From assembly GCA_019633425.1 (NCBI GenBank), contig WSUB01000149.1:1-64000 (forward strand): a stretch of 64,000 bases of DNA, written 5' to 3'. Made by a program: the position numbers and the translations under genes. The notes below the pieces were generated by a model. That model worked only from the letters and a program-made list of their open reading frames with translations. It searched no databases and had not been told where the DNA came from. Shown in pieces: positions 2,784 through 31,933 of the stretch (position 1 is its first letter; every line of letters begins with the position of its first letter). This DNA comes from Tulasnella sp. 424 (taxonomy: Eukaryota; Basidiomycota; Agaricomycetes; Cantharellales; Tulasnellaceae).

Positions 2784-5700
2784 ATGCTTGCACTGCTCAG
2801 GCTGCTCAAACTTGCCGCAAAGTCAAGCCCTCCAACTTCCGCGCCACTGGAGGCTGGAAAGAATCCCCTCAAACGAGAAGTCTATGCTCTAACTGAAGCC
2901 TCCCCGGGTCTGCAGCCTCTTGAATGTGGAGGGAGATCTCGGTCTTTCACGAAAATGGAGAAAGAACAGCCGAATAGGATCAAACTATCTGCAGTAAGCA
3001 GGAATCGAGGCATCATTTTCCTGAAGCACTACTTAATCGCATTTCGCTGCAGCGAGACCTCCTAGCCATTCTATCAGGAAGGCGGATATCCATCACCGAC
3101 ATCAAATTCTCCGGCGATAGTTCCAAAGACGGTGGTACTTATGCCGACGTCGCGGTGGCTACGCTTGTCAGGACGAATGGCAGTGGAGATGAACGAAGAA
3201 CGGTAGCCGTCAAAAAGCTTCGATTCGTTCTCAATGGGGACATGACCGGGGAAAAGTTTCTTCGGGCAAGTTTTTGCGCTTGCTGTGCTCTTCGGCTCAA
3301 CTCACTCGTACTCTCCAGGCGTTCGTTAACGAGTTGCGTGTATTGGACAAACTATCTCATCCAAATATCGTAGAGATCCTTGGATTTGTGGAGGATGCAG
3401 AGAACCGCATTGCTTGGCTTGTTTTTCCATGGGAAGAAAATGGGAACCTTCGGGAGTTCCTTCGTTCTGGGAACTGGGAACTGCCCGAACGGGTGTCGCT
3501 CGTGCGTTATCGACGTAGAAGTCACCGAATAAGGAGCTTATTATCGACGCCTTTTAGGTTCAAGACGTAGCGCGCGGACTCGAATATCTTCATACTCGGA
3601 ATCCACCCATCTGCCATGGCGACCTGAAATCGGTGAGCTCGGCGACCCATCCATCTGCGTCACGCCGTCTTACATTGACTTTCGCTTAGCTGAACATCCT
3701 CGTCAACTCAGAGCATCGCGCCCTTATTACAGACTTCGGTTCGGCGCGTGTTGCTCGAGAAATTCGCGAGCTCGAAGCCGACCCGCCAACGGCCTCAACG
3801 GGGCGCAATCCTCCGAAAACGAAGGACCGCCTTCAGTTCAACCTTTCTGCGTCCGACACCACCCTTACATTGACCGGTCCTCAGTGCTCTTTTCGTTGGG
3901 CGCCACCCGACGTTCTCAATGGAGGGCCACTGAATCTGGCGAGTGACATTTGGGCACTCGGTTGGATCGCTTGGGAGGTGAGCTTCCCAGTCAACTCGGA
4001 GGCAACGCTTCGCTGACACAGCATACCTGCTCGTCTGGCCTCAGGCGATCACTGACAACCACCCATTTGAGGAACTCAATCTGGAATTGGCTGTCATTAT
4101 GAGGATAATAGAAGGCCGATTGCCATTACTCCACGATCACGGTCAACTCTCGCAAATTCGTAGTCTATGCAGCATGATGCTGAGCTGTTGGAAGTCGAAA
4201 CCAAAGGATAGACCGTCGGCGACAGAATGCAGGAGAACTCTCCGTTGGATTGTAAGTGGGGCGCCACCCTGTTAACATGACCTGAAGACATTGATTTGAA
4301 ACAGCCGTCCGTTGTCCCAATGTCGAAGGATGGCGAGGAATCCACGATCCGGTCGGCGATTATATTGCTGCGACTCGGGGAGATTCATCGTTTGCAAGAC
4401 AAGCACGAAGAAGCTACGAAAATGTATGAGCGAGGACTGGTCGTCGCTCAATCTACTAGAGATCAAACTGTAGTGGCACGTCTATTTCTGCAGCTCGCGG
4501 AGACTCAACGAATGCAAGGCAAGTTCATCAAAGCAGAGGCGTCCTACATCAAAGCGATGGCCATCTGCGGGAGCATCGGAGATGACCTCCGTCGAGCGAG
4601 CGCGTTTCATGGACTTGGGGAGATACAGCGAATGCGCCATAACTACTTCGATGCAGAAGCGTCTTACACTCAAGCGATAGCCATCTACGCAAGCATCGGG
4701 AATGACCAGGGCCGAGCGGACGCATTGCTTGGGCTTGGGGAGATCCAGCGAGCGCGCTCCAACTACGTCGATGCAGAGACGTCTTCCATCAAAGCGATAA
4801 CCATCTGCTCCAGCAACAAGCCTGACCTAGGCCGAGCGAACTCATTGCGTGGCCTTGGGAACATCCAGCAACCGCGGTCCAACTATGTCGATGCAGAGGC
4901 GTCTTCCATCAAAGCGATAACCATCTACTCGAGCAATAAGCCCGAACTGGGCCGAGCGAACGCTTTACGTGGGCTCGGGGACATCCAACAAGCCCGGTCC
5001 AGCTACGTCGACGCAGAGGCGTCTTACACCCAAGCGATGGCCCTCTACGCAGGCATCGGGAATGAGCAGGGCCGAGCGGATGCATTGGTTAGGCTTGGGG
5101 AGATCCAGCGAGCACGCTCCAACTACGTCGACGCAGTGGTGTCTTACACCCAAGCGGTGACCATCTACGAAAGCACCGGGGATGACCGGGGCCGAGCGCG
5201 CGCACTGCATAGGCTTGGAGACGTCCAGCGAGTGCGCTCCAACGACGTCGATGCAGAGGCGTCTTACGCCCAGGCGATAGCCATCTACGCCAGCATCGGG
5301 AGTGAACGTGGCCGAGCGAACGCATTGTTTGGGCTTGGGGACGTCCAGCGAGCGCGCTCTAACTGCGTCGATGCAGAGGCGTCTTACGCCCAAGCGATAG
5401 CCATCTACGCCAGCATCGGGGACGACCCGTATCGAGCGAACGCATTGTTTAGCCTTGGGGACGTCCAGCGTGCGCGCTCCAACTATGTCGATGCAGAGGA
5501 GTCTTACACCCAAGCGATGGCCATCTATGCCAGCATCAGGAATGAACGTGGCCGAGCGAACGCATTGTTTTGCCTTGGCAGTGTCCAGCGAGCGCGCTCC
5601 AACTACATCTATGCAGAGGCGTGTTACACCGAAGCGATGACTCTCTACGCGAGCACCGGGGATGGCCGGGGCCTCGCGCGCACACTGCGTAGGCTTGGGG

Positions 5701-6869
5701 ATGTCCAGCGAGTGCGCTCCAATGACGTCGATGCGGAGGCGTCTTACGCCCAAGCGATAGCCATCTACGCCCGCATCGGGAGTGAACGTGGCCGAGCGAA
5801 CGCATTGCTTGGACTTGGGGACGTCCAGCGAGCGCGCTCCAACTACGTCGATGCAGAGGCGTCTTACACCCAAGCGATGGCCATCTACGCGAGCATCGGG
5901 AATAACCTTAGCCGAGCGGACGCATTGGTCGGGCTTGGGGACATCCAGCAAGCGCGCTCCAACCACGTTGATGCGGAGGCGTCTTACACCCAAGCGATGA
6001 CCTTCTACGTGAGCATCGGGAATGAGCATGGCCGAGCGGATGCACTGCTTGGCCTTGGGGACGTCCAACGGCTGACCTCCAAACACGCTGATGCAGAGGC
6101 GTCTTACGCCCAAGCTATGGCCATCTACGGGAACGTCGGGAATGAACATGGCCGAGCGGACGCATTGCTTCGGCTTGGGTGCGTCCAGAACGCGCGCTCC
6201 AATTACATCGATGCAGAGGCATCTTACACCCAAGCGATGGATATCTACGCGAGCAACGGGAATGAGCATGGCCGAGCGGACGCATTGCTTTGGCTTGGGG
6301 ACATCCAGCGAGTGCGGTTCAACCTCGTCGCTGCAGAAGCGTCTTACACCCAGGCGATGACTTTCTATGTGAGTGTCGGGACCAACCTGAGCGGGGCAAA
6401 CGCAATGTTTAGGCTTGGAGACGTCCAGCAAGCCCGCTCCAACTATGCCGAAGCAGAGGCGGCCTATACCGCAGCAGCCGCTATCTATGTGCGCACCGGT
6501 GATGACCTGGGCCGAACAAACTCCTCCCTAAAGCTAGGCTGCATTCGATTCCGCCAAGCTCGTTACTCGGAAGCAAGGATCTTAATTAACCATGCTGCCA
6601 GAATATCCGAACGGATCCATTATAACTGGGGCAAGACCGTCTCCAGCGAGCTTCTAAAGGATCTTGTTGAGGCCGAGAGATATTCCACCGAGCCAACACT
6701 TCGTTCTCCGGTTTGGCTAGCTATGACCCATGCCGAAGCCATCGTTTCAGCACCCCTTTCAACTCAAACGACTGAACCGAATACGTCTTATTCGGCCGAT
6801 CTACCCTCCACGGCAGACACTTTCCGTAGACGCTCCGTCCGCTCCGCCCATCAAATTCTCTCTCTTTGA
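2784..6869 (+). CDS. Kinase-TPR protein B (TKL-like kinase plus 17 TPR units)
   Basis: Predicted exons are 2784-2993, 3053-3265, 3319-3501, 3558-3632, 3690-3977, 4045-4251 and 4305-6869, giving about 1246 residues. The kinase domain (about residues 70-395) shows the lysine in VAVKKL, the helix-C Glu in FVNELRVL, a catalytic loop HGDLKSLNILVN (HRD is HGD, with Asp, Lys and Asn kept), DFGSA, APPD in place of APE, and DIWALGW. It should be active and TKL-like. A long insert rich in Pro/Thr sits between DFG and APPD. A divergent TPR follows, then 17 near-identical 40-residue units, a final conserved segment and a Ser/Thr-rich tail. The tail runs 23 residues past the stop used by C and D. Intron 2 uses a GC donor (GCAAGT at 3266). 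The ATG used by gene D is AAG here, so I chose the in-frame ATG 36 bp upstream. Target and signal are unknown. Confidence 0.85.
5161..6120 (+). repeat. 480-bp higher-order repeat in TPR array of gene B
   Basis: Two successive blocks of four TPR units (about 5161-5640 and 5641-6120) start with the same uncommon unit types. Each opens with a unit carrying RVRSNDVDAEASYAQAIAI followed by one starting IGSERGRAN. This four-unit periodicity inside the 120-bp array indicates a block duplication, as expected from unequal crossing-over or replication slippage. Confidence 0.6.
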
Positions 6870-7933: not shown

Positions 7934-10826
7934 ATGGAGACAGGACAGTCTCGAAGCATCAAACTATCTGCGGTAAGCAGGAATTGGGGCGTGATTTCCC
8001 GAGCATTGGTTGATCGTCCTTTACGACAGCGAGACCTCCTGACTACTCTATCAGAAAGGCGGATAACTATCACCGAAATTAAATTTGCCGGAAACAGCTC
8101 CAAAGACGGTGGTACCTATGCCGACGTCGCTGTAGCTACCCTCGTCAGGGCCAACAACGGTAGGGAAGAAGAAAGAACCGTGGCCGTGAAGAAGCTTCGA
8201 TTCATTTTAAGTGGTGACACGACTGAGGAAAAGTTTCTTCGGGTAAGTTTTTGCGCTTGACTGCGCTTTTCGACATGAGTAACTTGGCCTTTTTCAGGTG
8301 TTTGTCAACGAGCTGCGTGTCTTGGACAAATTGTCCCACCCAAATATTGTGGAGATCATTGGATTTGTGGAGGATACCGAGAACCGCATTGCCTGGTTGG
8401 TTTTTCCATGGGAGGATAATGGGAACCTTCGGGAGTTCCTTCGTTCTGGGAAGTGGGAATTGCCCGAACGGGTGTCGTTAGTGCGTCACAATCAATAAGG
8501 CATTGCATGAGGGGCTTATCTCAACGCTTTTCAGATTCAAGACGTGGCATGCGGGCTCGAATATCTTCACACTCGACAGCCACCCATCTGCCACGGGGAC
8601 CTTAAATCAGTGAGTTTGGCGACCGATCCATCTTTATCGTGCCGTCTTAGACTGACTATCGCCTAGCTAAATATCCTTGTCAAGTCAGATCATTGCGCTA
8701 TCATCTCAGACTTCGGCTCAGCTCGCATTATTCGCCAAATTCAAGAGCTCGACCCTAATCCAGCAACCCACCCAACGGCTTCAGCAAGTCGCATTCCTCC
8801 AAGAAACGATGGGCGTCTTCAGTTCGACCTTACCGCGTCGGCTACCACACTTACCTTGACCGGTCCTGAATGTTCTTTTCGTTGGGCGCCGCCTGACGTT
8901 CTCAACGGAGGACCACTGGATCTGGCAAGTGACGTCTGGGCGCTTGGTTGGGTCACTTGGGAGGTGAGTAATCCACTCCAATCAAAGGCGCTGGTCCATT
9001 TACCCGTATTTGCCCATCTCGCATTAGGGTATCACTGGTCGCTACCCATTCGAGGAAGTCAATCTGGAGTCGGCTGTCATTATGAGGATAATAACAGGCC
9101 AACTGCCAGTACTCCACGACCACGATCAACTCTCGCAAATCCGTAGTCTATGTAGTATGATGCTGAGCTGTTGGAAGTCGGAACCAAGCGAAAGACCGTC
9201 GGCGACAGACTGCTGGAGAACCCTCCACTGGATGGTAAGTCGGGTGCCAGTCTGGTAACATGATCTGACAACTTATAATTTGAACAGCCGTCCGTTGTCC
9301 CGGAGTCCAAAGATGGCAAGCAATCCACGATTCGGTCGGCGATGATATTCCTGCAACTCGGAGAAATCCATCGTTTGCAAGACAGGCATGAGGAAGCCAC
9401 GAAAATGTATGAGCAGGGACTGGCCATCGCTCGATCTACTCGAGACCAAAGTGGAATAGCACGGCTATCTGTCCATCTCGCGGAGAGCCAACGGTTCCGG
9501 GGCATGTATGATGAAGCTGAGGCGGCTTACACGCAAGCGAGGGCTATCTTCGAGAGCATTGGGGATGATCGGGGCCGAGCGGACGCATTACGTGGGCTTG
9601 GGTACATCCAGCGAGTGCGCTTCGACTACGGTGATGCAGAGGCGTCATTCACCCAAGCGATGGCCATCGACGAAAGCATTGGGAATCACCAGGGCCGAGC
9701 GAACGCATTGCTTGGGCTTGGGCACGTCCAGCAAGCGCGCTGCGACTACGGTGATGCAGAGGCGTCTTTCACCCAGGCGATAACCATCTACGCGAGCATC
9801 GGGGACGACGTGGGCCGAGCGAACGCGTTGCTTGGGCTTGGGGGCGTCCAGCGAGTACGCCACAACCATCATGATGCCCAGGCGTCTTTCGCCCAAGCGA
9901 TGGCCATCTTCGTGAACATCGGGGATGTTCAGGGCCAAGCACAAGCATTGGCTGAGCTTGGGGACGTCCAGGAAGCGTGCTCCAACTATGTCGATGCAGA
10001 GGAGTCCTACACACAAGCGATGACCATCTTCGGGAGCATCGGGGATGACCTGGGGCGAGCGGACGCGTTGCGTGGGCTTGGGCACATCCAGCGAGTGCGC
10101 TCCAACTACATCGACGCAGAGGCATCTTTCACCCAGGCGACGGACATCTACGGGAGCATTGGGCATGATCAAGGCCGAGCAAACGCACTGCTTGGACTTG
10201 GGGACGTCCAGAAAGTGCGCTCCAACTTTCTTGATGCAGAGGCGTCTTTTACCGAAGCGGCGGCCATCTACGAAAGCGTCGGGAATGAGCAAGGCCGAGC
10301 GAGCGCATTGGTCGGGCTTGGGGATGTTCAGAAAGCGCGCTCCAATTACGCCCATGCAGAGGGATCCTACAGCCAGGCGATGGTCATCTTTGCGAGCATC
10401 GGGGATGACCTGGGCCGAGCGAACGCGTTGCTCGGGCTTGGGGACGTCCAGCGGTTGAGCTCCAAAGACGTTGATGCAGAACCGTCTTACACCCAAGCGA
10501 TGTCCTTATACGCGAGCGTCAATGATGACCTAGGCCGAACAAACTCTTCCCTAGCGCTCAGTCGCATTCGATTACACCAAGCTCGGTATTCGGAAGCAAA
10601 GGCCCTGATTAACGATGCTGCAACAATATCCGAACGGATTAATTATGTCTTGGGCAAGAGACTCTCGAGCGAGTTCCTGGAGGATGTTCTTGAAGCCGAG
10701 AGATCTTCCGCCGAGCCACCTCCGGCTTTGCCAGATATGACCCGTGCCGAAGACATCGTTGCAGCACCGCTTTCGCCTCAAGGAACCGATACGAATACAT
10801 CCGATTCGGTCGTTCCGCCCCAGTAG
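7934..10826 (+). CDS. Kinase-TPR protein C (9 TPR units), original start codon lost
   Basis: Predicted exons are 7934-7972, 8030-8242, 8298-8480, 8535-8609, 8667-8963, 9028-9234 and 9288-10826, giving about 850 residues from the internal Met at 7934. The kinase motifs are complete: VAVKKL, HGDLKSLNILVK, DFGSA, APPD, and DVWALGW. Nine 40-residue TPR units follow, then the common C-terminal segment with an intact Pro/Ser/Thr-rich tail ending VVPPQ. The codon matching gene D's ATG is ACG (7807). A net one-base shift and a TGA at 7820-7822 separate that point from the conserved N-terminal frame (ENRLGRKVDVLTEAS). The protein must therefore start at 7934 or use an unseen upstream exon. Intron 1 (7973-8029) is 57 nt with no in-frame stop, so it could be retained without breaking the frame. 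Confidence 0.8.
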
Positions 10827-12799: not shown

Positions 12800-15221
12800 A
12801 TGTCGAAGCCTCCGAGTCCGACAGTGCCACCGCGCATAGGGGAAAATCGTCTCAAACGAAAAGCCGATGTTCTAGCCGAAGCCTCCCCAGTTCTCCAACC
12901 TGAAGGTGGAGAAGGGTCCCTGTCTTTCACGGAAATAGAGACAGAACAATCGAAGAGGATCAAACTATCTGCGGTACGTAGGAATCGAGGAATGAATCTT
13001 GGGAGGCAGCGATTAATCGCCCCTTCGTTGCAGCGAGACCTCTTGACGGCTCTATCCGGAAAGCGTATACCCATCACAGAAATCAAATTTTCCAGCAACA
13101 GCTCTAAAGATGGCGGTACTTATGCCGACGTGGCGGTAGCTACCCTTATCCGAGCGGGTGGCGGTGGAGAGGATCAAAGAAGAGTAGCCGTGAAGAAGCT
13201 TCGATTCGTTCTAAATGATGACATGACTGAGGAAAAATTTCTTCGGGTGAGTTTCTGCGCTTGTTGTGTTCTCCGACACTACTCATTCGTACTCTCCAGG
13301 TATTGGTTAACGAGCTGCGAGTATTGGACAAACTATCTCATCCAAATATCGTAGAGATCCTTGGATTTGTGGAGGATATCGATAAACGCATTTCCTGGCT
13401 TGTTTTTCCATGGGAGGATAACGGGAACCTTCGGGAGTTCCTTCGTTCTGGGAAGTGGGAACTGCCGGAACGGGTGTCGCTGGTGCGTGATCTACGTGGA
13501 GTTCACCGAATAAAAGGCTTATCATGGACGCCTTTCAGGTCCAAGACGTAGCACGCGGACTGGAATATCTCCACACTCGGGAGCCACCCATCTGCCACGG
13601 TGACCTGAAATCCGTGAGCTTGGCAATCGATACAGCCGTACCACACCGTCTTACATTGACTATCGTATAGCTGAACATCCTTGTCAACTCAGAGCATCGC
13701 GCCCTCATCACCGACTTCGGTTCGGCGCGTGTTGCTCGAGAAATCCAAGACCTAGAAGCCAACCCAGCAAGCCCACCAGTGGCTTCAGGGAGCCGCGTTC
13801 ATCCAAAAGACAATGAACGTCTTCAGTTCAACCTTACTGCGTCCGACACCACTCTTACATTGACCGGTCCTCAATGTTCCTTTCGCTGGGCACCACCTGA
13901 CGTTCACAAGGGAGGGCCACTGAATCTGGCGAGTGACATTTGGGCACTCGGTTGGATCGCTTGGGAGGTGAGCTCCCCAGTCTAATCAAGGCAGAGCTCC
14001 GCTGACCCATCATATCGACCGGCCTTGCTTCAGGCTGTTACCGATAGTCATCCGTTTGAGGAACTCAACGGGGAGTGGGATGTGATGATGAGAATAATAG
14101 ACGGACAACTGCCACCCCTCCACGATCACGGTCAACTCGCGCAAATCCACAGTCTATGCAGTATGATGCTGGGTTGTTGGGAGTCGGAACCAAAGGAAAG
14201 ACCGTCGGCGACGGAATGCTATAGAACACTCCAGTGGATTGTGAGTTGGGTGCCACTCTGGCAGTCATGATCTGACAACATTTATCTGAAACAGCCATCT
14301 GTTGTCCCAGAGTCGAAGGATGGCGAGCAGTCCACGATTCGGTCTGCTAACCTATTCTTGCAGCTCGGGGAAATTCATCGTTTGGAAAACAGGCTTGAAG
14401 AAGCTACAAAAATGTTTGAGCAGGGACTGGCCATCGCTCGATCAACGAGGGATCAAACTGCAGTAGCGGACCTGTCTGTCCGGCTCGCGGATACTCACCG
14501 GGCCCGAGGCATGTACGTTGAGGCAGAGGTGGCTTACACACGAGCAATGTCCATTTCCTGGAGCATAGGGGATGACCTAAGCCGAGCGGACGCATTGGTT
14601 GGGCTTGGGGAGGTCCAGATCATGCGGTCCAACCACATCGGTGCAGAGGCGCCTTACACCCAAGCGATGGCTATCTACGCGAGCATCGGGAATGAACGTG
14701 GCCGAGCGAACGCATTGGTTGGCCTTGGGGACGTCCAGAATGCACGCTCCAACTACGTCAATGCAGAGGCATCCTTCACTCAAGCGATGGCCATCTACGT
14801 GAGCATCGGGAGCGAGCAGGGCCGAGCGAACGCATTGTATGGGCTTGGGAAGGCCCAGCTTGCGCGGTCCAACGACGTCGATGCAGAGGCGTCTCACACC
14901 CAAGCGATGGCCATCTACGCGAGCATCGGGAATGAATGTGGCCGAGCGAACGCATTGGTTGGCCTTGGGGACGTCCAGCAAGCGCGGTTCAACTACGTCG
15001 ATGCAGAGGCGTCTTATACCCAAGCGATATCCATCTACGCGAGCATCGGGGATGAACTTGGCCGAGCGAACTCCTCCCTGGAGCTCGGTTATATTCGATT
15101 ACGCCAAGCTCGCTACTCGGAAGCAAAGATCCTAATTCACGATGCTGCAAGAATATCCGAACGGATCCATTATGTTTGGGGGCAAGAGAGTCTCCAGCAA
15201 GCTCCTAGAGGATGTTCTTGA
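12800..15221 (+). CDS. Kinase-TPR protein D (5 TPR units), C-terminus frameshifted
   Basis: Predicted exons are 12800-12973, 13034-13246, 13300-13482, 13539-13613, 13671-13967, 14034-14240 and 14295-15221, giving about 794 residues. The start GCAATGTCG has good context and is the best preserved N-terminus of the family (MSKPPSPTVPPRIGENRLKR). The kinase motifs are complete: VAVKKL, VNELRVL, HGDLKSLNILVN, DFGSA, APPD, and DIWALGW. Only five 40-residue TPR units follow. At about 15177-15181 a run of five G replaces the four G seen in paralogue B, which shifts the frame and ends the protein at 15221 with QESLQQAPRGCS. The ordinary tail remains open in the other frame to 15363. A sequencing error in the G run is the main alternative. 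Intron 1 is 60 nt and has no in-frame stop. Confidence 0.82.
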
Positions 15222-15363
15222 GGCCGAAAGATCTTCCACCGAGCCAACACTTCCACCTCCGGTCTCACCAGCTGTTACCCATGCCAAAGACCTCATTTCG
15301 GCGCCGCTTTCAACTCAAACAACCGATACGAATACGTCCGATTCGGCCGATCTTCCCGAGTAG
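15222..15363 (+). pseudogene. Out-of-frame relic of gene D's C-terminal tail
   Basis: This is the continuation of the common tail (KLLEDVLEAERSSTEP and further, ending TSDSADLPE) in the frame that gene D would use without the extra G near 15180. Its intact reading to the usual stop TAG at 15361-15363 shows that the frameshift is very young or an error. Confidence 0.7.
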
Positions 15364-20510: not shown

Positions 20511-23328
20511 ATGGCACCCTCCAACTCCAGGAAGACTCGGAGTCGTCTCAAACGAAAACTCGACGTCCTAACGGAAAACTCGTCGGCCTCAGAGCCTCCG
20601 ACTATGGGGCAGGCCACGTCTTTCACGGAAATTGAGACAGGAGAGTTGAAGAAAATGAAACTGTCTGCGGTAAGTAAGAATTAATGTTCGGACTTCAAGA
20701 TGTCTTCCTAACTCCGAGTCGCATATGGCCTGTAGCGAGACCTCCTAGCTACTCTATCAGGGAGACGAATAACTATTACCGAAATCAAATTTACTGGAAA
20801 CAGCTACAGAGATGGTGGTACTTATGCCGACGTCGCGGTGGCTTCCCTCGGCCGGGCGAGCAGCGGTGGGGAGAAAGGGAGAACCGTCGCCGTGAAGAAG
20901 CTTCGATTTGTTCTAAGTGGTGGCATGACTGAGGAAAAGTTTCTTCGAGTAAGCTCCTGTGCTTGACCGCGATTTTTGACATTACTAACTTGTCCTTGTC
21001 AGGCGTTTGTTAACGAGCTACGTGTCTTGGACAAATTGTCTCACCCAAATATCGTGGAGATTATTGGATTCGTGGAGGATATCGAAAATCGGATCACCTG
21101 GTTAGTTTTTCCTTGGGAAGACAATGGGAACCTTCGGGAGTTCCTTCGTTCTGGGAAATGGGAACTACCCGAACGGGTGTCGTTAGTGCGTCATAAGCGG
21201 AGAAGGCATTGGATGTGGGGCTTATTATCGACGGTTTTCAGATCCGAGACGTGTCACTCGGACTCGAATATCTTCACACTCGACAGCCACCCATCTGCCA
21301 CGGCGACCTGAAATCAGTGAGCCTGGTAGAAATATATTGGTATCTCGTCGCCTGATATTGACTTATTCTCAGCTTAACATACTTGTCAACTCGGAGTATC
21401 GAGCCGTCATCTCCGACTTTGGCTCGGCCCGCATTATTCGCGAAATCCAGGAGCTTGACTCCAATCCAGCACCAAACCCAACGGCTTCAGCAAGCTGCGT
21501 TCCTCCAAAAAACCAAGGACGTCCTCAGTTTGCCGTTACTGCGTCCGATACCGCGCTTACGTTGACTGGCCCGGCATGCTCATTTCGTTGGGCACCACCT
21601 GAAGTTCTCATCGGAGGACCATTGGATCTAGCAAGTGACATCTGGGCGCTTGGTTGGATCGCTTGGGAGGTAAATTTTCCAATCAAAAACGATGACCGGT
21701 TAAGCCATACCCACTTATCATCGTGCGTCAGGCTATCACCGATCGCTATCCATTCGAGGAACTCAAGTTGGAGCTGGACGTCACCATGAGAATAATAGAA
21801 GGGAAACTGCCATTACTCTATGATCATGGTCAACTGTCGCAAATCGACAGTCTATGCAGAATTATGCTGAGCTGTTGGAATTCGGATCCGAAGGAAAGGC
21901 CGTCGGCGACAGAATGCTGGAAAATCCTCCAATGGACCGTAAGTAGCTAACTCCTCTGCTAAAACCCGAGACGCCAACATTAATTTAAATTAGCCGTCCG
22001 CTGTCCCGACGCCGAAAAGCGGCGAGCACCCTACGGTTCGGTCGGCCATCCTATTCATGCAACTCGGGGAAATCCATCGCTTGAAATATAGATACGAAGA
22101 AGCTCTGAAGATGTATGAGCAAGGACTTGCCATCGCTCGATCTACCGGAGATCAAAGTGTAGAGGCACAGATATACCTGTTGCTGGCGGAGGTTCACCGA
22201 ACGCGGTGCAAGTACGCCGAAGCAGAAGTTTTTTCCACCCAAGCGCTGGCCATCCTCAGGAGTATTGGGAAACGCCTCGGCCAAGGAAAGGCATTGGTTG
22301 GGCTCGGGCACACCCAGAAGATGCGCTTCGACCTCGCTGGGGCGGAGTCGTCTTTCACCCAAGCGATGGCCATCTACGAGAGCATCGGGAACGACCCGAA
22401 CCGAGCGAACGCATTGCGTGGACTAGCAGGCATCCAGCAATTGCGCTACAACTACGTTGAAGCGGAAGCAACTTACACCCAGGCACTGGCTATCTACACG
22501 AGCATCGGAGACGACGTGGGCCAAGCGGACACGATGCTGGAGCTTGGGGAGATCCAGCGACTGCGCTCCAACTACGTCGAAGCGGAGGCGTCTTACAACC
22601 GAGCGATAGCCGTCTACGTGAGCACCGGAGATCACGTTGCCCGAGCGCGTGGATTGGTGGGGCTTGGTCTCGTCCAGAAGATGCGCTCCGACTACGTCGA
22701 AGCGGAGGCGTCTTACACTCAAGCAATAACCATCCACGAAGGCATCGGGAATAGCATAGGCCGAGCGCACGTATTGCTTAAGCTTGGAGAACTTCATCTG
22801 GCACGTTCCAACTACCCTGAAGCAGAGGCGTCTTACGTCCAAGTGATGGCCATCTCCGAGAGCATCGGGGCTCATGTGTACCAAGCGCATGCATTGTTTG
22901 GGCTTGGGCTCGTCCAGAAAATGCGGTCCGACTACGTCGAAGCGGAGGCGTCTTGCACCCAAGCGATGACCATTTACGAGGGCATCGGGGATAATGCAAA
23001 CCAAGCGCGCGCATTGCATAGGCTCGGAGAAGCCCAGGAGGCGGACTCTAACTCCACCAAAGCAGAAGCGTCTTACGGCCGAGCGATGGCCATCTTCAGG
23101 AGCATCGGAGATCGCCTGGGGTTAGCGAAATCCTCCTTGAAGTTAAGTAAAATCTACCTACTCCAAGGTCGGTATTTGGAAGCAAGGGCCTTAATTGACG
23201 ATGCGGCTGGAATATCGGAACAAATTGATTATTCCTGGGGCAAGAGATATTCAAAACATCTGAAGGAGGCCCTTGAGGCCATTCGACCATCTATCGTCCG
23301 ACCAAACCAGTCTACGGCACCATTGTAA
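20511..23328 (+). CDS. Kinase-TPR protein F (8 diverged TPR units), intact
   Basis: Predicted exons are 20511-20669, 20736-20948, 21003-21185, 21242-21316, 21373-21669, 21732-21938 and 21994-23328, giving about 822 residues. The start is the ATG of MAPSNSRKTRSRLKRK. The kinase motifs are complete: VAVKKL, VNELRVL, HGDLKSLNILVN, DFGSA, RWAPPEV (closer to canonical APE than B-D), and DIWALGW. The eight TPR units differ more from one another than in B or G, with units such as LGLVQKMRSDYVEAEA. The C-terminus ends in a short basic tail (AIRPSIVRPNQSTAPL) and lacks the long Ser/Thr tail. No lesion was seen in any exon. F has no copy of the conserved upstream element. It is the best candidate for the oldest or most constrained member. 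Confidence 0.87.
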
Positions 23329-24204: not shown

Positions 24205-24451
24205 ACGAATTTGCAAGCCCGGGTTCAACCTTGTGTCCTGGGGCGGAAAATCCGCACCTATCGCTTACGTAAGTGGATGTCACAAACAGCCCTTGATCAA
24301 AGGAGGCGCTGCATCGGTTCAAGTTCTACCAACCGCTTATCAGTCTCCCAACAACATCCCAAAGTCAATAGACCTTGAGGCAATCACCCACTTCCTTATT
24401 GATCATTCTCTTGCATTCTCTTGACTTGCAGGACTGCTCAAAGTTGCCAGA

Positions 24452-27400
24452 ATTTCGAACCCTCCCACACCGCCGCCTCCGGACGCTGCAAAGAATCTTC
24501 CCGGACGAAAAGTCGATGTTCTATCGGAACCCTCCCCGGTTCTGCAAGTGAAAGATGGGCAGGGAACGCGGCCTTTTACGAGGACAGAAACAGGACAGTC
24601 GAAGAAGATCAAACTATCTACGGTAAGCGCCGAGCGGGAATTGAGGCATCGCTTTCCTGAAGCACTCTTAAATCGACTCTTCGCTGTAGCGAGACCTATT
24701 AGCTACTCTATCCCGAAGGCGGATATCCATCACCGACATCAAATTTATTACCAACAGTTCCAAAGATGGTGATACTTATGCCGACGTCGCGGTGGCTACC
24801 CTTGTCAGGGCGAACAGCGGTGGGGAACAAGAAAGAACTGTGGCCGTGAAGAAGCTTCGATTCATTCTAAGTGATGACACGACCGAAGAGAAATTTCTTC
24901 GGGTAAATTCCTGCGCTTGACTGCGATTTTGGACATGACTACCTTGTCCTGTCTGTCAGGCGTTTGTTAACGAGCTATGTGTCTTGGACGGATTGTCTCA
25001 CCCAAATATCGTGGAGATCATTGGATTTGTGGAGGATACCGAGAACCGCATTGCCTGGTTAGTTTTTCCTTGGGAGGATAATGGGAACCTTCGGGAGTTC
25101 CTTCGTTCTGGCAAATGGGAATTGCCCGAACGAGTGTCGTTAGTGCGTCATAAACCGGTCCGGCATTGGATGAGGGGCTTATTCTCAACGCCTTTCAGAT
25201 TCAAGACGTGGCATGCGGACTCGAATATCTTCACACTCGACAGCCACCCATCTGCCATGGCGACCTGAAATCAGTGAGCTTGGTTACGACCTAGCTGGAT
25301 CAAGCCGTCACTGACTCTCACCTAGCTCAATATCCTTGTAAACTCAGAGCATCGGGCCCTCATTTCGGACTTCGGCTCAGCTCGCATTATTCGCGAAATT
25401 CAAGAGCTCAACCCCAATTCAGCAACACAACCAACGCCACCAACGCCACCAACGCCTTCTGCAAGCCGTGTTCCTTCAGGAACCGGTCCATGTCTTCAGT
25501 TCAACGTTACTGTCTCTGGTACTGCGCTTACGTTAACCGGTCCGGCCTGCTCGTTTCGTTGGGCACCACCTGAAGTTCTCGGCGGAGCACCATTGGATCT
25601 GGCAAGTGATATCTGGGCGCTTGGTTGGGTCGCTTGGGAGGTGAGCACTCGATCCCCATCACAAGTGTGGTCCGCTAACCAATATTTGCCCATCGTGCGT
25701 CAGGGTATCACTGATCGCTACCCATTTGAGGAACTTAATCTGGAGTCGGCTGTCATTATGAGTATCATAGAGGGACAACTGCCACTACTCCACGATCACA
25801 GCCAACTCTCGCAAATTCGCAGTCTATGCAACATGATGCTAAGCTGTTGGAAGTCGGAACCAGAGGAAAGGCCGTCAGCGAGAGAATGCTATAGAACCCT
25901 AGAATGGATTGTAAGTTGGGTACCACTCCGGTAAACATGATCTGACAGAATTTGAAACAGCCGTCCGTTGTCCCAGCGTCGAAAGATGGCGAGCAGTCCA
26001 CGATTCGGTCCGCTGCCCTATTGCTGCAGCTCGGGGAAATTCATCGCTTGCAAAACAGGAACGAAGAAGCTACAAAAATGTATGAGCAGGGATTGGCCAT
26101 CGCCCGGTCTACTAGGGATCAAGCTGCAGTGGCACGTCTATCTGTCCAGCTCGCAGAAACTCACCGAATGCGGTGCATGGACATTGAAGCAGAGGCGGCT
26201 TTCACCCAAGCGATGGCCGTCTTTGGGAGCATCGGGAATGACCAGAGCCAAGCGCACGCACTGCGTGGGCTTGGGGAGATCCAGCGAGCTCGCTCCAACT
26301 ATGTCGATGCGGAGGCGTCCTACACCCAAGCGATGGCCATCTTCTCCAGCATCGGGGATGAGTCAGGCCGAGCGAGCACCTTGCTTGGGCTTGGGAACGT
26401 CCAGCACTCGCGCTCCAACTACGTCGATGCAGAAGCGTATTATATCCAAGCGATGGCCATCTACGGGAGCATCGGGAATGACCAGGGCCGAGCGCACGCA
26501 CTGCTTGGGCTTGCACAGGTCCAGCAATCGCACTGCAACACCATCGAAGCAGAGGCGTCTTTTACCCAAGCGATGGCCATCTACGCGAGCATCGGGGAGG
26601 ACCATGGCCGAGCGACCGCGTTGCTTGGCCTTGGGCAGGCCCAGCGAACGCGCTCCAACTACGTCAAAGCCGAGGCGTCGTATACCCAAGCGATGGCAGT
26701 CTACGCGAGCATCGGCGAAAATCAAGGCCGAGCGAATGCATTGCTTGGGCTTGCGGACGTCCAGCGAACGCGTTCCAACTATGTCGATGCAGAGGCGTCT
26801 TATACCCAAGCGATGGTCATATGCACGAGTATTGGGAATCGCCTGGGCCGAGCGAACGCATTGCATGGGCTAGGGGACATCCAGCTAGCGCGCTCCAACT
26901 ACGTCATTGCAGGGGAGTCTTATACCCAAGCGATGGCCATCTTCACGAGCATCGGCAATGAACAGGGCCGAGCGCACGCATTGCTTGGGCTTGGGCACGT
27001 CCAGCGAGTGCTCTCCAACTATTCCGATGCCGAGGCGTCGTATACCCAAGCGACAGCCATCTACGCAAGCATCGGGGAAGATCTGGGCCGAGCGAACACA
27101 TTGCTTGGGCTTGGGCACCTCCGGCGAGAGCGCTCCAATTATGTCGGTGCAGAGGCGTCCTACACCCAAGCGATGACCATCTACGCAAGCATCGGAGTCG
27201 ACCTGGGCCGAGCGAACGCATTGCGTGGACTTGGGGCTGTCCTGCGACTGCGCTCCAACTACGTCGATGCAGAGGCATCTTACACCCAAGCAATGGCCAT
27301 CTACGCGAGCATCGGGTCTGACCTGGGTCGAGCGAACGCGTTGGTTGGACTTGGGGACGTCAAGCGATCGCGCTCCAACTACCCCGATGCGGAGGCGTCT

Positions 27401-28093
27401 TACACCCAAGCGATGGCCATCTATACGAGCATCGGGAATGAAGATGGCCGAGCGGACGCATTCTATGGCCTCGGGGACATCCAGCGATTGCGCTCCAACT
27501 ACGTCGATGCAGAGGCATCTTTCACGCAAGCGATGGTCATCTACGAGGGCACTGGGGACGACCACGGCCGAGCGGATGCATTGCGTAGGCTTGGGGACGT
27601 CCAACGAGCGCGCTCCAACTACATCAAAGCGGATTCATCTTACACTCAGGCGATGGCCATTCACACAAGCATCGGGAATGAGCATGGCCGAGCGGACGCA
27701 TTCCATGGGCTCGGGGACCTCCAGCGATTGCGCTCCAACTATGTCGATGCAGAGGCGTCTTTCACGCAAGCGATGGTGATCTACGAGAGCATCGGGGACG
27801 ACCACGGCCGAGCAGAAGCGTTGCGTGGGCTTGGGGACGTTCAGCGAGCGCGCTCCAACTACATCAAAGCGGATTCATCTTACACCCAAGCGATGGCCAT
27901 TTACACGGGCATCGGGGATGAGCATGGCCGAGCGGACGCATTGCGTGGGCTTGGGGACATCCAGCAAGCGAGCCTCAACTATGTCGATGCAGAGGCGTCT
28001 TATACCCAAGCGATGGCCATCTACACAAGCATCGGGGATGACCTCGGCCAAGCGACCTGCTCCGTGCTACTTAGCAATATTCAATCACACTAA
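24452..28093 (+). CDS. Kinase-TPR protein G (16 TPR units), start and end damaged
   Basis: Predicted exons are 24452(partial start)-24622, 24690-24902, 24960-25142, 25199-25273, 25326-25640, 25704-25910 and 25961-28093. All six introns and the whole frame are open, and the kinase residues are present: VAVKKL, HGDLKSLNILVN, DFGSA, WAPPEV, and DIWALGW. The glycine loop reads DGDTYADV rather than DGGTYADV. The position of the usual ATG is ATT, and no in-frame ATG exists in exons 1-3, so an upstream exon, a non-AUG start or inactivity must be assumed. The coordinate 24452 marks that ATT. The array has 16 units. The last conserved segment stops at TAA (28091-28093), where paralogues have CAA. A short CCAACGCCA-type expansion lengthens exon 5 by 18 bp. 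Confidence 0.72.
27417..27896 (+). repeat. 240-bp higher-order repeat in TPR array of gene G
   Basis: Two copies of a pair of TPR units lie end to end (about 27417-27656 and 27657-27896). Each pair has one unit ending VDAEASFTQAMVI and one ending YIKADSSYTQAMAI, a combination seen nowhere else in the array. This is a very recent two-unit duplication. Confidence 0.7.
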
Positions 28094-29424: not shown

Positions 29425-31933
29425 ACTTCTTCGGGCTCGGACGGTCACACTGTGCCCGAACATGAATCAGTTGTCCCAAGTCTTTATTCTCTAAACGCTG
29501 CTCGAGGTACGAATCCGTAATGCATGCGCAAAAACTCAAGTCATGGTTAGACTAACCGATGGACCTTGAAATAGGACCGGACTACCGTCAAGTCATTAAA
29601 CTAAATTTTCTCTCCCATAGTGGAACCTTTCGAGCTTCGGCTTATGCGTCAGTGCTTCATCTTCGAGGGGAGGGCGTCACACCTCAGCCACACCAGACCC
29701 ATAACGGAGATATACTGTGTTGGAATGGCGAAGTAACTTTTCAGCCTGTGCTCGTACGATTAGGTGCTCATCTCGTGCATTTTTAGATCTTTGAGGGGTT
29801 GGACGTACGTTCTAGAATCTATCACACTGCAACCAATCCGAACTGAGAACAATTCACACTACCGTTTTCTATGCAGATACTATCCAACGAAAACGACGGA
29901 AAGAAGCTATTTGAGATATTGAGCAAAACCGAACGGCCTGTGGAGGTTCTGGCCCAGATCGAGGGGCCGTGAGTCATCGCCGAAATGATGGCTATTTGAG
30001 GGGTCCTTCCCCATCACTCAAGATACGCGTTTGTCTTTTATCAGGTCCGTGCAGAGCAGTGTCTTGATCACATGATAGAACCCGGGTTGATATTCTCAAG
30101 CAGCGAGCCACCAACACGCTATACTATGCTAGGGACCCACTGGGCCGGAGATCGTTACTGGTACACTATCCAACCGCGGAGCAGCCACAATTTATAATAG
30201 CTTCGGCATGCAACGGGCTATCGGCGGACTACGAATTCGAAGAGGTCAAACCTGATGGCATCCATTGCGTCAAGTTGAACAATATCGAGGATGCAAAATC
30301 GTTCGTGTCCGAGTTTGGACAAGCAATTCAATTGCTTAGTCGAGTGCCCGAAGCTGCTTCGAGGATGGAATACGTCAGTCTCTCAGCAAGCTACTTGCAT
30401 GATCGCTTATCATGCTATTTCCCCAGGTGTCGATACCGCCATTAAACACAGCTTTCCCCTCCGCTGAGGTTGAGACCACCTGGTCTTCGCCATCACCCCG
30501 TATCACGCAAGCACTCGAAGACTTCCGAAGCGTATTAGATGAGTCCGTACAATTGCGCGTACAACATATTCCACATCAGTATGCTGGCCGTTTTCCTTTC
30601 CGGTGGTTGATGGGACCCTAACCAGCTGCACCAAAATAGTCTACCGGTTGGCCCAGGCTTGGCTCGCGTCGTAGTCTTATTCAGCGGTGGGATTGACTGC
30701 ACAGTCCTGGCGTATCTTGCTCATAAGTGAGCGCAGCCTCCCCGCCTCCTCAAACTACGCTCCTGATCGCTCATTGTTGCGCTTTGTCAGGCATCTGCCC
30801 CTGTCGGAACCAATAGACCTACTCAACGTGGCTTTTGAGAACCCACGTACTCTTAAAGCTGCTTCCAAGCCGTCGGGAAAGGGCAAGAAGGCACGACGTA
30901 ATTCCAACGAAGGGGGACAAGATGTTTCCGAACAAGGGAGGTCCACATATGACGTCCCAGACCGCTTGACCGGAAGAGAGGAAGTCGAGGAACTCCGCAG
31001 ATGCTGCCCAGAGCGCACGTGGAACTTTGTGAGCGATCCCGTTGCCGTCGTGCGCGGTCCAATGCATTGTGCAGACTAATTCTGCCCATACTACAGGTTG
31101 AGATCAACGTTCCCTATGAGGTATGAGACCCCCTTTTCTCCGCCTATCGTCGACACCGTGAACAAAGGTTATCTTAGGAATGTCAACGCGAACGACCTCG
31201 AGTTCAAAACCTCATGTATCCAAATCAAACAGTGATGGACTTGGTAGGTCGCCGACGAGCCGCTGATGCCTCTCTGCCCATCTGCTGACCTACCCCTTGT
31301 AGAGCTTGGCCCTCGCCTTATACTTCGCATCGAGAGGAATAGGACATGTTACCAACGCTGATGGGATCGCCTCGCCGTACACAAGCGAAGCGCGAGTTCT
31401 CCTCAGCGGACTGGGCTCCGACGAACTCTTGGGTGGATACTCGAGGCATCGAAAAGCCTTCGGTAGGGATGGATGGCAAGGCTTAGTCGAGGAGGTGATA
31501 CCCCTTTGCCTTCTATAACCGTAACGTACGGCGCTCAAACCCAGCCCTCATAGCTCCAACTCGACCTTACCCGCCTCCCAAGTCGGAACCTCGGAAGAGA
31601 CGACCGCGTAATTTCGTCAAACGGGAAAGAAACGCGATATCCATTCCTTTCGCTCTCGGTCGTCTCTTTCCTCGCCAACCTTCCCGTTGAAACGAAGGTC
31701 AATCCATTGTTGGAAGAAGGCAGAGGCGATAAAATGTTGTTGAGGATGCTGGCGGAGAAGATGGGGCTCGTGATAGCAAGTGGAAGAAAAAAGAGGTACG
31801 GGGTGACATAATGGATAGTCTTAGGGGACACCGAGCTTACCAAATATTGCTCCACAGAGCCATGCAGTTTGGTAGTAGGAGTGCCAGGATGGAAGGTGGT
31901 GATGCCGATCGTAAAGGCGACGCCGTTCTCTAA
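29401..31933 (+). CDS. Asparagine synthetase domain-containing protein (ASNSD1-like)
   Basis: Thirteen predicted exons: 29401-29506, 29575-29732, 29787-29804, 29877-29968, 30079-30373, 30427-30578, 30640-30726, 30791-31028, 31097-31120, 31178-31243, 31303-31494, 31554-31795 and 31858-31933, giving about 581 residues. The start MCGIVFSL supplies Cys2, the nucleophile of class II glutamine amidotransferases. RGPD, LHLRGE and WNGEIFEG follow. The synthetase half has the PP-loop VLFSGGIDC, then EPIDLLNVAF, VPDRLTGR, LLSGLGSDELLGGYSRHR, GRDDRVIS and RYPFL, and ends with MQFGSRSARM. This order matches the conserved eukaryotic ASNSD1 family, not the main asparagine synthetase. The exact reaction of that family is not well settled. 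The third exon is only 18 nt. The join into exon 5 lacks the usual aromatic stretch after EGP and is the weakest point of the model. Confidence 0.85.

Follow-up and report, generated by a model that had tools for sequence, protein, structure and literature searches.

Gene G of Tulasnella sp. 424 carries a long array of tetratricopeptide repeat (TPR) units, and the initial annotation had noted that the differences among these units fall on positions 2, 5, 9, 12 and 13, here called the groove sites. The same positions are described as hypervariable on the concave face of TPRs (Magliery and Regan 2005, PMC1261162). This raises the question of whether the array presents a diversifying recognition surface, as had been proposed. 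We analysed a window of 64,000 nucleotides (bases 1–64000 of its contig) and searched the genome to which it belongs (46.8 Mb in 448 contigs).

Gene G and its kinase–TPR family

Gene G lies on the forward strand, and our model splices five kinase exons (24690–25910) onto a TPR exon at 25961, with all six introns having GT..AG borders and lengths of 50–67 bp. The kinase exons are placed at 24690–24902 (with the VAVKK lysine), 24960–25142, 25199–25273 (the catalytic HGDLK loop), 25326–25640 (NILV, DFG and APPE, by motif match as well as splicing) and 25704–25910 (the C-lobe). The joined exons match Pfam PK_Tyr_Ser-Thr with an E-value of 2.6e-38, and VAVKK, HGDLK and SDFG are all present. The TPR exon (25961–28093) matches TPR_12 with an E-value of 3e-86 and, by unit scoring, comprises 16 tandem 40-residue units at 26132–28051 with a period of 120 bp. 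Upstream, an open frame at 24425–24622, which resembles the N-terminal region of the sister genes and is followed by a GT..AG intron, is the presumed first coding exon; no in-frame ATG was seen in it. The TPR exon ends at its own stop (TAA, 28091–28093), at a point where its sisters A, B, C and D have Gln; the C-terminal segment of these paralogues is thus missing from gene G. Possible readings are that gene G is truncated, that its start lies in an exon we did not see, or that it is decaying. Many arrays, and not gene G alone, carry the selection signal reported below.

The window's first 28 kb holds a same-strand cluster of such arrays. Its earlier lettering, A to G, implies seven, of which six were parsed (A, B, C, D, E and G), and kinase exons lie 5′ of arrays B, C, D, E and G. 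Array A (3–743), assigned to the family by TPR match and unit scoring, is cut by the contig end. Gene B (3690–6866) has a kinase exon at 3690–3917 (match span, with NILV, DFG and APE) and a TPR array at 4281–6866; the corresponding match spans and arrays are 8667–8903 and 9279–10823 for gene C (8667–10823), 13671–13904 and 14271–15218 for gene D (13671–15218), and 21373–21609 and 21994–23325 for gene E (21373–23325), all on the forward strand. In gene D, a C-terminal segment read from the translations at 15136–15360 is in another frame than the array, pointing to a frameshift or to an intron that was not recognised. At 31303–31515, a translation that by eye resembles asparagine synthase marks the end of the cluster.

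The family extends well beyond the window. Using one kinase exon of gene G as the query, we found at least 150 family kinase exons in the genome (all 150 scored were matches, from 720 candidates). For the TPR arrays, 63 of 1018 candidates were scored and 126 matches listed; a stop falls inside six of these 126, and most of those listed are therefore open. From this list we fetched 40 loci, chosen by TPR similarity to gene G and thus not a genome-wide census, and in 39 of them two or more kinase motifs precede the array on its 5′ side; the remaining array starts at the end of its contig. The distance from the APE motif to the first recognised unit is 601–854 bp in 38 of these 39 kinase loci and 1695 bp in the other (L024). 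The best-scoring proteins elsewhere are Tulasnella kinase–TPR proteins, of which 41 were used (32–52% identical over the aligned part).

Pfam detected neither NACHT nor NB-ARC in the array of gene G or in its first 420 residues. Across the genome there are at least 91 NACHT matches (91 scored of 165 candidates) and two marginal NB-ARC matches, and none of these lies on the window's contig or in the 40 fetched stretches. A NACHT repertoire thus seemingly exists alongside the kinase–TPR family in the same genome.

Variation and codon selection across the TPR unit

The residues listed in the initial annotation agree with the 16 units of gene G, and positions 2 (N5, D4, H3 and one each of R, S, T and E), 5 (L6, R5, V2, H2, Y), 9 (D8, E2, Q2, H2, N, A) and 13 (A5, S3, L3, T2, M, V, E) are among the most variable. 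Their entropies are 2.48, 2.06, 2.12 and 2.56 bits, respectively, while position 12 (R12, Q2, H, L) is moderate, at only 1.19 bits. The five groove sites average 2.08 bits against 0.81 at the other 35, a mean equalled by none of 39 circular shifts and by 7 of 20,000 random five-site sets. Entropy spread evenly over the unit, named beforehand as evidence against the proposal, was therefore not what gene G displayed. The description of the rest of the unit as nearly fixed holds for sites 1, 7, 20, 26, 27 and 35, which are fixed, but was overstated: sites 32 (2.06), 38 (2.05) and 36 (2.01) are about as variable as site 5, and sites 10 (1.88), 19 (1.79), 37 (1.49), 18 (1.42), 31 (1.32) and 11 (1.31) also exceed site 12. 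All 16 units of gene G differ in their five-site code, and over 15 related arrays 133 of 153 units have distinct codes, compared with 12 to 94 for five other five-site sets.

Part of this pattern is generic to TPRs, since two protein-level controls showed a groove excess too. Among 267 units from 41 kinase–TPR proteins of other Tulasnella strains, the groove mean was reached by 2 of 39 shifts and 270 of 20,000 random sets, with sites 5, 18, 25 and 38 the most variable. In a mixed control of 167 units from 79 other proteins (bacterial proteins, some further Tulasnella proteins and unnamed proteins), it was reached by 7 of 39 shifts and 2240 of 20,000 sets.

We then compared replacement (beta) with synonymous (alpha) rates using a site-wise codon likelihood test (own code, FastTree topology), in which the units compared are paralogous and not alleles. 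The window set contained the 51 of 59 units that scored at least 110 and, with 93 of 98 units from related loci outside the window, formed a set of 144 units; the gene G, window and 144-unit sets are nested. Three further subfamilies, sf2 (166 of 171 units), sf3 (138 of 142) and sf4 (124 of 130), were tested separately, and loci L003, L008, L036 and L038 (61 of 602 units) entered no subfamily test.

Pooled over the groove sites, dN/dS was 3.72 in gene G (P = 0.0015), 2.38 in the window (P = 1.2e-4) and 2.11 in the 144 units (P = 9.7e-8). Subfamilies sf2 (1.50, P = 0.004) and sf3 (1.45, P = 0.008) repeat the groove signal more weakly, and sf4 does not (1.04, P = 0.81). Buried helix-A sites gave 0.35 in gene G, 0.19 in the window, 0.18 in the 144 units, 0.18 in sf2, 0.10 in sf3 and 0.12 in sf4. 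For the exposed helix-B sites (18, 22, 25, 29 and 32), the values were 0.69, 0.67 and 0.77 in the three nested sets, 1.32 in sf2 (P = 0.09), 0.76 in sf3 and 0.51 in sf4; variation concentrated on the convex face, another outcome named in advance as contrary, is thus absent from gene G, the window and the 144 units.

Taken singly, no sites other than 5 (P = 0.0005) and 12 (P = 0.001) were positive in the 51 window units; among the 93 units from related loci elsewhere in the genome, site 12 alone was positive (P = 0.002), with P = 0.09 for site 5 and P = 0.14 for site 13. Sites 5, 12, 13 and 36 were positive in the 144 units, sites 5, 9 and 13 in sf2, sites 5, 9, 13 and 18 in sf3, and sites 13, 14, 31 and 38 in sf4; these P-values are uncorrected for 40 tests per set, and sites 5 and 12 in the 144 units would survive correction. 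Sites 2 and 9 singly do not exceed a dN/dS of 1 in the window or related sets. Counting the 144 units, sf2, sf3 and sf4 together, 15 sites are significantly positive, and 10 of them are groove sites, where 1.9 are expected. The off-groove selected sites are 18 in sf3 and 14 and 31 in sf4, and these two subfamilies may use a partly different surface. Site 38 of sf4 continues the groove face. We do not trust site 36, which was positive in the 144 units, falsely positive in one simulation and at P = 0.056 after masking of CpG-transition codons.

A tree-free pairwise measure, pN/pS, gave groove and remaining-site values of 2.09 and 0.49 in gene G, 1.45 and 0.55 in the window, 1.37 and 0.58 in the 144 units, 0.98 and 0.55 in sf2, 0.82 and 0.34 in sf3, and 1.05 and 0.50 in sf4; for pairs at most 12% apart, the groove values rise to 1.25 (sf2), 1.36 (sf3) and 1.45 (sf4). 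By array, the groove values are 3.12 for A (four units), 1.08 for B, 0.99 for C, 0.67 for D and 0.88 for E, which makes gene G the strongest of the long arrays. Mostly synonymous variation at the groove sites, the remaining contrary outcome, does not describe gene G on either measure. At site 5, 46 of 51 codons end in T while eight different residues occur; for site 13, G is the last base in 45 of 51 and nine residues occur.

The kinase, examined in 16 genes (five from the window and 11 loci, L003 and L008 among them), gave a dN/dS of 0.22, with one positive and 92 negative sites among 220 at P < 0.05. Its HGDLK and DFG regions align in all 16 genes with the catalytic motifs kept; L003 reads DFS. 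The kinase is under purifying selection and the TPR scaffold is conserved, while the face of helix A that borders the groove of known TPRs changes faster than synonymous sites in three of four subfamilies.

The predicted groove and competing explanations

The AlphaFold prediction for the array is an LGN-like superhelix of 40-residue helix-turn-helix units with an inner groove, in which the variable sites would lie on one face of helix A. Foldseek ranks Ctr9 and comparable TPR proteins highest, at low TM-scores, and LGN appears from rank 4; after realignment LGN comes first, at about 18–19% identity, and position 9 of the family aligns to a ligand-contact Asn of LGN. In LGN/GPSM2 and Pins, the ligand runs along the inner TPR groove (PMC3438535). 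The kinase–TPR arrays resemble LGN in their 40-residue units, their register and this Asn position, but LGN carries GoLoco motifs after its eight TPRs and is without a kinase. A helical wheel places the fast-changing face of helix A at the same side in all four subfamilies. Along this face a ligand would presumably bind.

Could the method itself have produced the signal, through recombination between units or CpG decay imitating positive selection? We regard this as very improbable. The codon at site 12 is CGA, and CpG transitions account for 28 of its 144 cells, yet sites 5 (P = 0.0004), 12 (P = 0.003) and 13 (P = 0.03) remain positive after CpG-transition codons are masked. In null simulations of the 144 units, with a groove dN/dS of 1 and gene conversion, the pooled value stayed at or below 1.40 in 24 runs, compared with the observed 2.11. 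Two of the 24 pooled tests nonetheless had P < 0.05 with dN/dS above 1, and the site tests under gene conversion gave 3 of 120 at P < 0.05, one of them below 0.001. The null reached the observed value in one of 30 sf2 runs (1.73) and in none of 30 sf3 runs. The likelihood P-values are thus somewhat too small and sf2 is marginal. The tree-free pN/pS agrees for the window family (1.37 against 0.58 in the 144 units), and the same fast face recurs in four subfamilies; neither CpG decay nor gene conversion as simulated accounts for the main signal.

Relaxed constraint, in which the groove sites are exposed and dispensable for the fold and their variety reflects neutral drift, is improbable, if less so than an artefact. 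In its favour, TPRs in general are hypervariable at these positions (PMC1261162), the 79-protein mixed control leans weakly towards the groove (7 of 39 shifts), and sf4 sits at 1.04. Against this, drift would bring dN/dS near 1, compared with 2.1–3.7 in the nested sets; the exposed face of helix B, which is no more tied to the core, remains at 0.5–0.8 in five of six sets (sf2 being the exception); and the simulations at a dN/dS of 1 fell short of the 144-unit value in every run. A stronger contender, although we doubt it, is that the proteins are adaptors of the fungus's own signalling, each paralogue's groove fitting a different internal partner through specialisation after duplication, like plant kinase–TPR scaffolds. 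Plant BSK kinases have the same order of a kinase followed by TPRs; these have few TPRs and are not known to carry a hypervariable tandem array. The architecture, the intact kinase motifs and the differing groove codes of the paralogues all suit such adaptors, as does the developmental role proposed for expanded kinase lineages of Agaricomycetes (PMC3937382). Family size, tandem clusters, turnover and 16 codes in one gene would fit an arms race better.

On balance we favour intracellular receptor kinases with a diversifying groove as the best explanation of the whole, and the earlier reading of a diversifying recognition surface gains support from a groove dN/dS above 1 in three of four subfamilies; the ligand and its binding, a non-self role and kinase activity we infer. 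In such receptors, the TPR superhelix groove would hold a peptide or protein ligand via positions 2, 5, 9, 12, 13 and 38, and binding would alter the activity or clustering of the preceding kinase to give a signal. New specificities would arise from unit duplication, loss and exchange together with selection on groove codons. What they recognise would most plausibly be non-self, be it a competitor, a virus, a bacterium, another fungal individual or the plant partner.

Comparison with known receptors and turnover of units

The signature itself is known. In the Podospora anserina NLR Pa_2_10340, three TPR positions on the concave face were reported as positively selected, along with polymorphism in repeat number, and units of such NLR arrays recombine (Dyrka et al. 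2014, PMC4986451). The kinase–TPR family shares with fungal NLRs long arrays of similar TPR units and selected concave-face sites, so it is the carrier that differs: as that paper presents them, fungal NLRs are defined by NACHT or NB-ARC, with a kinase among their N-terminal domains, whereas here the kinase directly precedes the array and neither domain was detected. The Podospora result also concerns three positions at one locus, compared with several arrays and subfamilies here. Like NLR and STAND proteins, the family has C-terminal superstructure-forming repeats with diversifying selection on a predicted interaction surface. We rejected membership of the fungal NLRs or STAND proteins because no NOD domain was detected.

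The groove positions were defined from entropy over unrelated 34-residue TPRs (PMC1261162), unlike the dN/dS above 1 within one gene family reported here, and in the kinase–TPR family position 38 replaces 33/34 of that set. Tyrosine-kinase-like (TKL) and FslK kinases are expanded in Agaricomycetes (PMC2838846, PMC3937382), and the present family resembles them, compared by description, as a lineage-specific kinase expansion in basidiomycetes. A term search of the accessible text found neither TPR nor tetratricopeptide in PMC3937382 and no tetratricopeptide in PMC2838846. We found no description of a kinase–TPR receptor family of this kind in the accessible open-licence literature, and a NOD-free kinase–TPR family carrying the known groove signature appears to be new.

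Little is understood of how basidiomycetes recognise non-self, and surveys for receptors search for NOD domains; if the receptor reading is true, such surveys would miss the kinase–TPR repertoire. Kinase–TPR proteins with groove-limited selection would then make up a parallel class of receptors in a lineage of orchid-mycorrhizal fungi. More tentatively, the genome could hold a second, NOD-free receptor repertoire beside NACHT, consisting of at least 150 receptor kinases with a combinatorial groove code that unit duplication and exchange, together with selection at five to six codons per unit, would keep renewing in the germline. The proposed specificity code at positions 38, 2, 5, 9, 12 and 13 is open to test, and the arrays offer a natural collection of groove variants that share a scaffold.

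The units turn over within genes. For 41% of 153 units the nearest unit is in the same gene, compared with 7% in label shuffles (maximum 15%), and first units group with other first units in 73%. Internal unit pairs of gene G are mostly 72–84% identical in DNA, and two pairs reach 90–92%, with units 12–13 and 14–15 forming a recent two-unit duplication; these are DNA identities, while high internal conservation in fungal NLRs is defined as at least 85% identity by T-reks over 100 residues. The neighbouring arrays L031 and L032, on one contig, have first units that are 98% identical in DNA and later units that differ, which makes them a natural case in which to follow recent array turnover.
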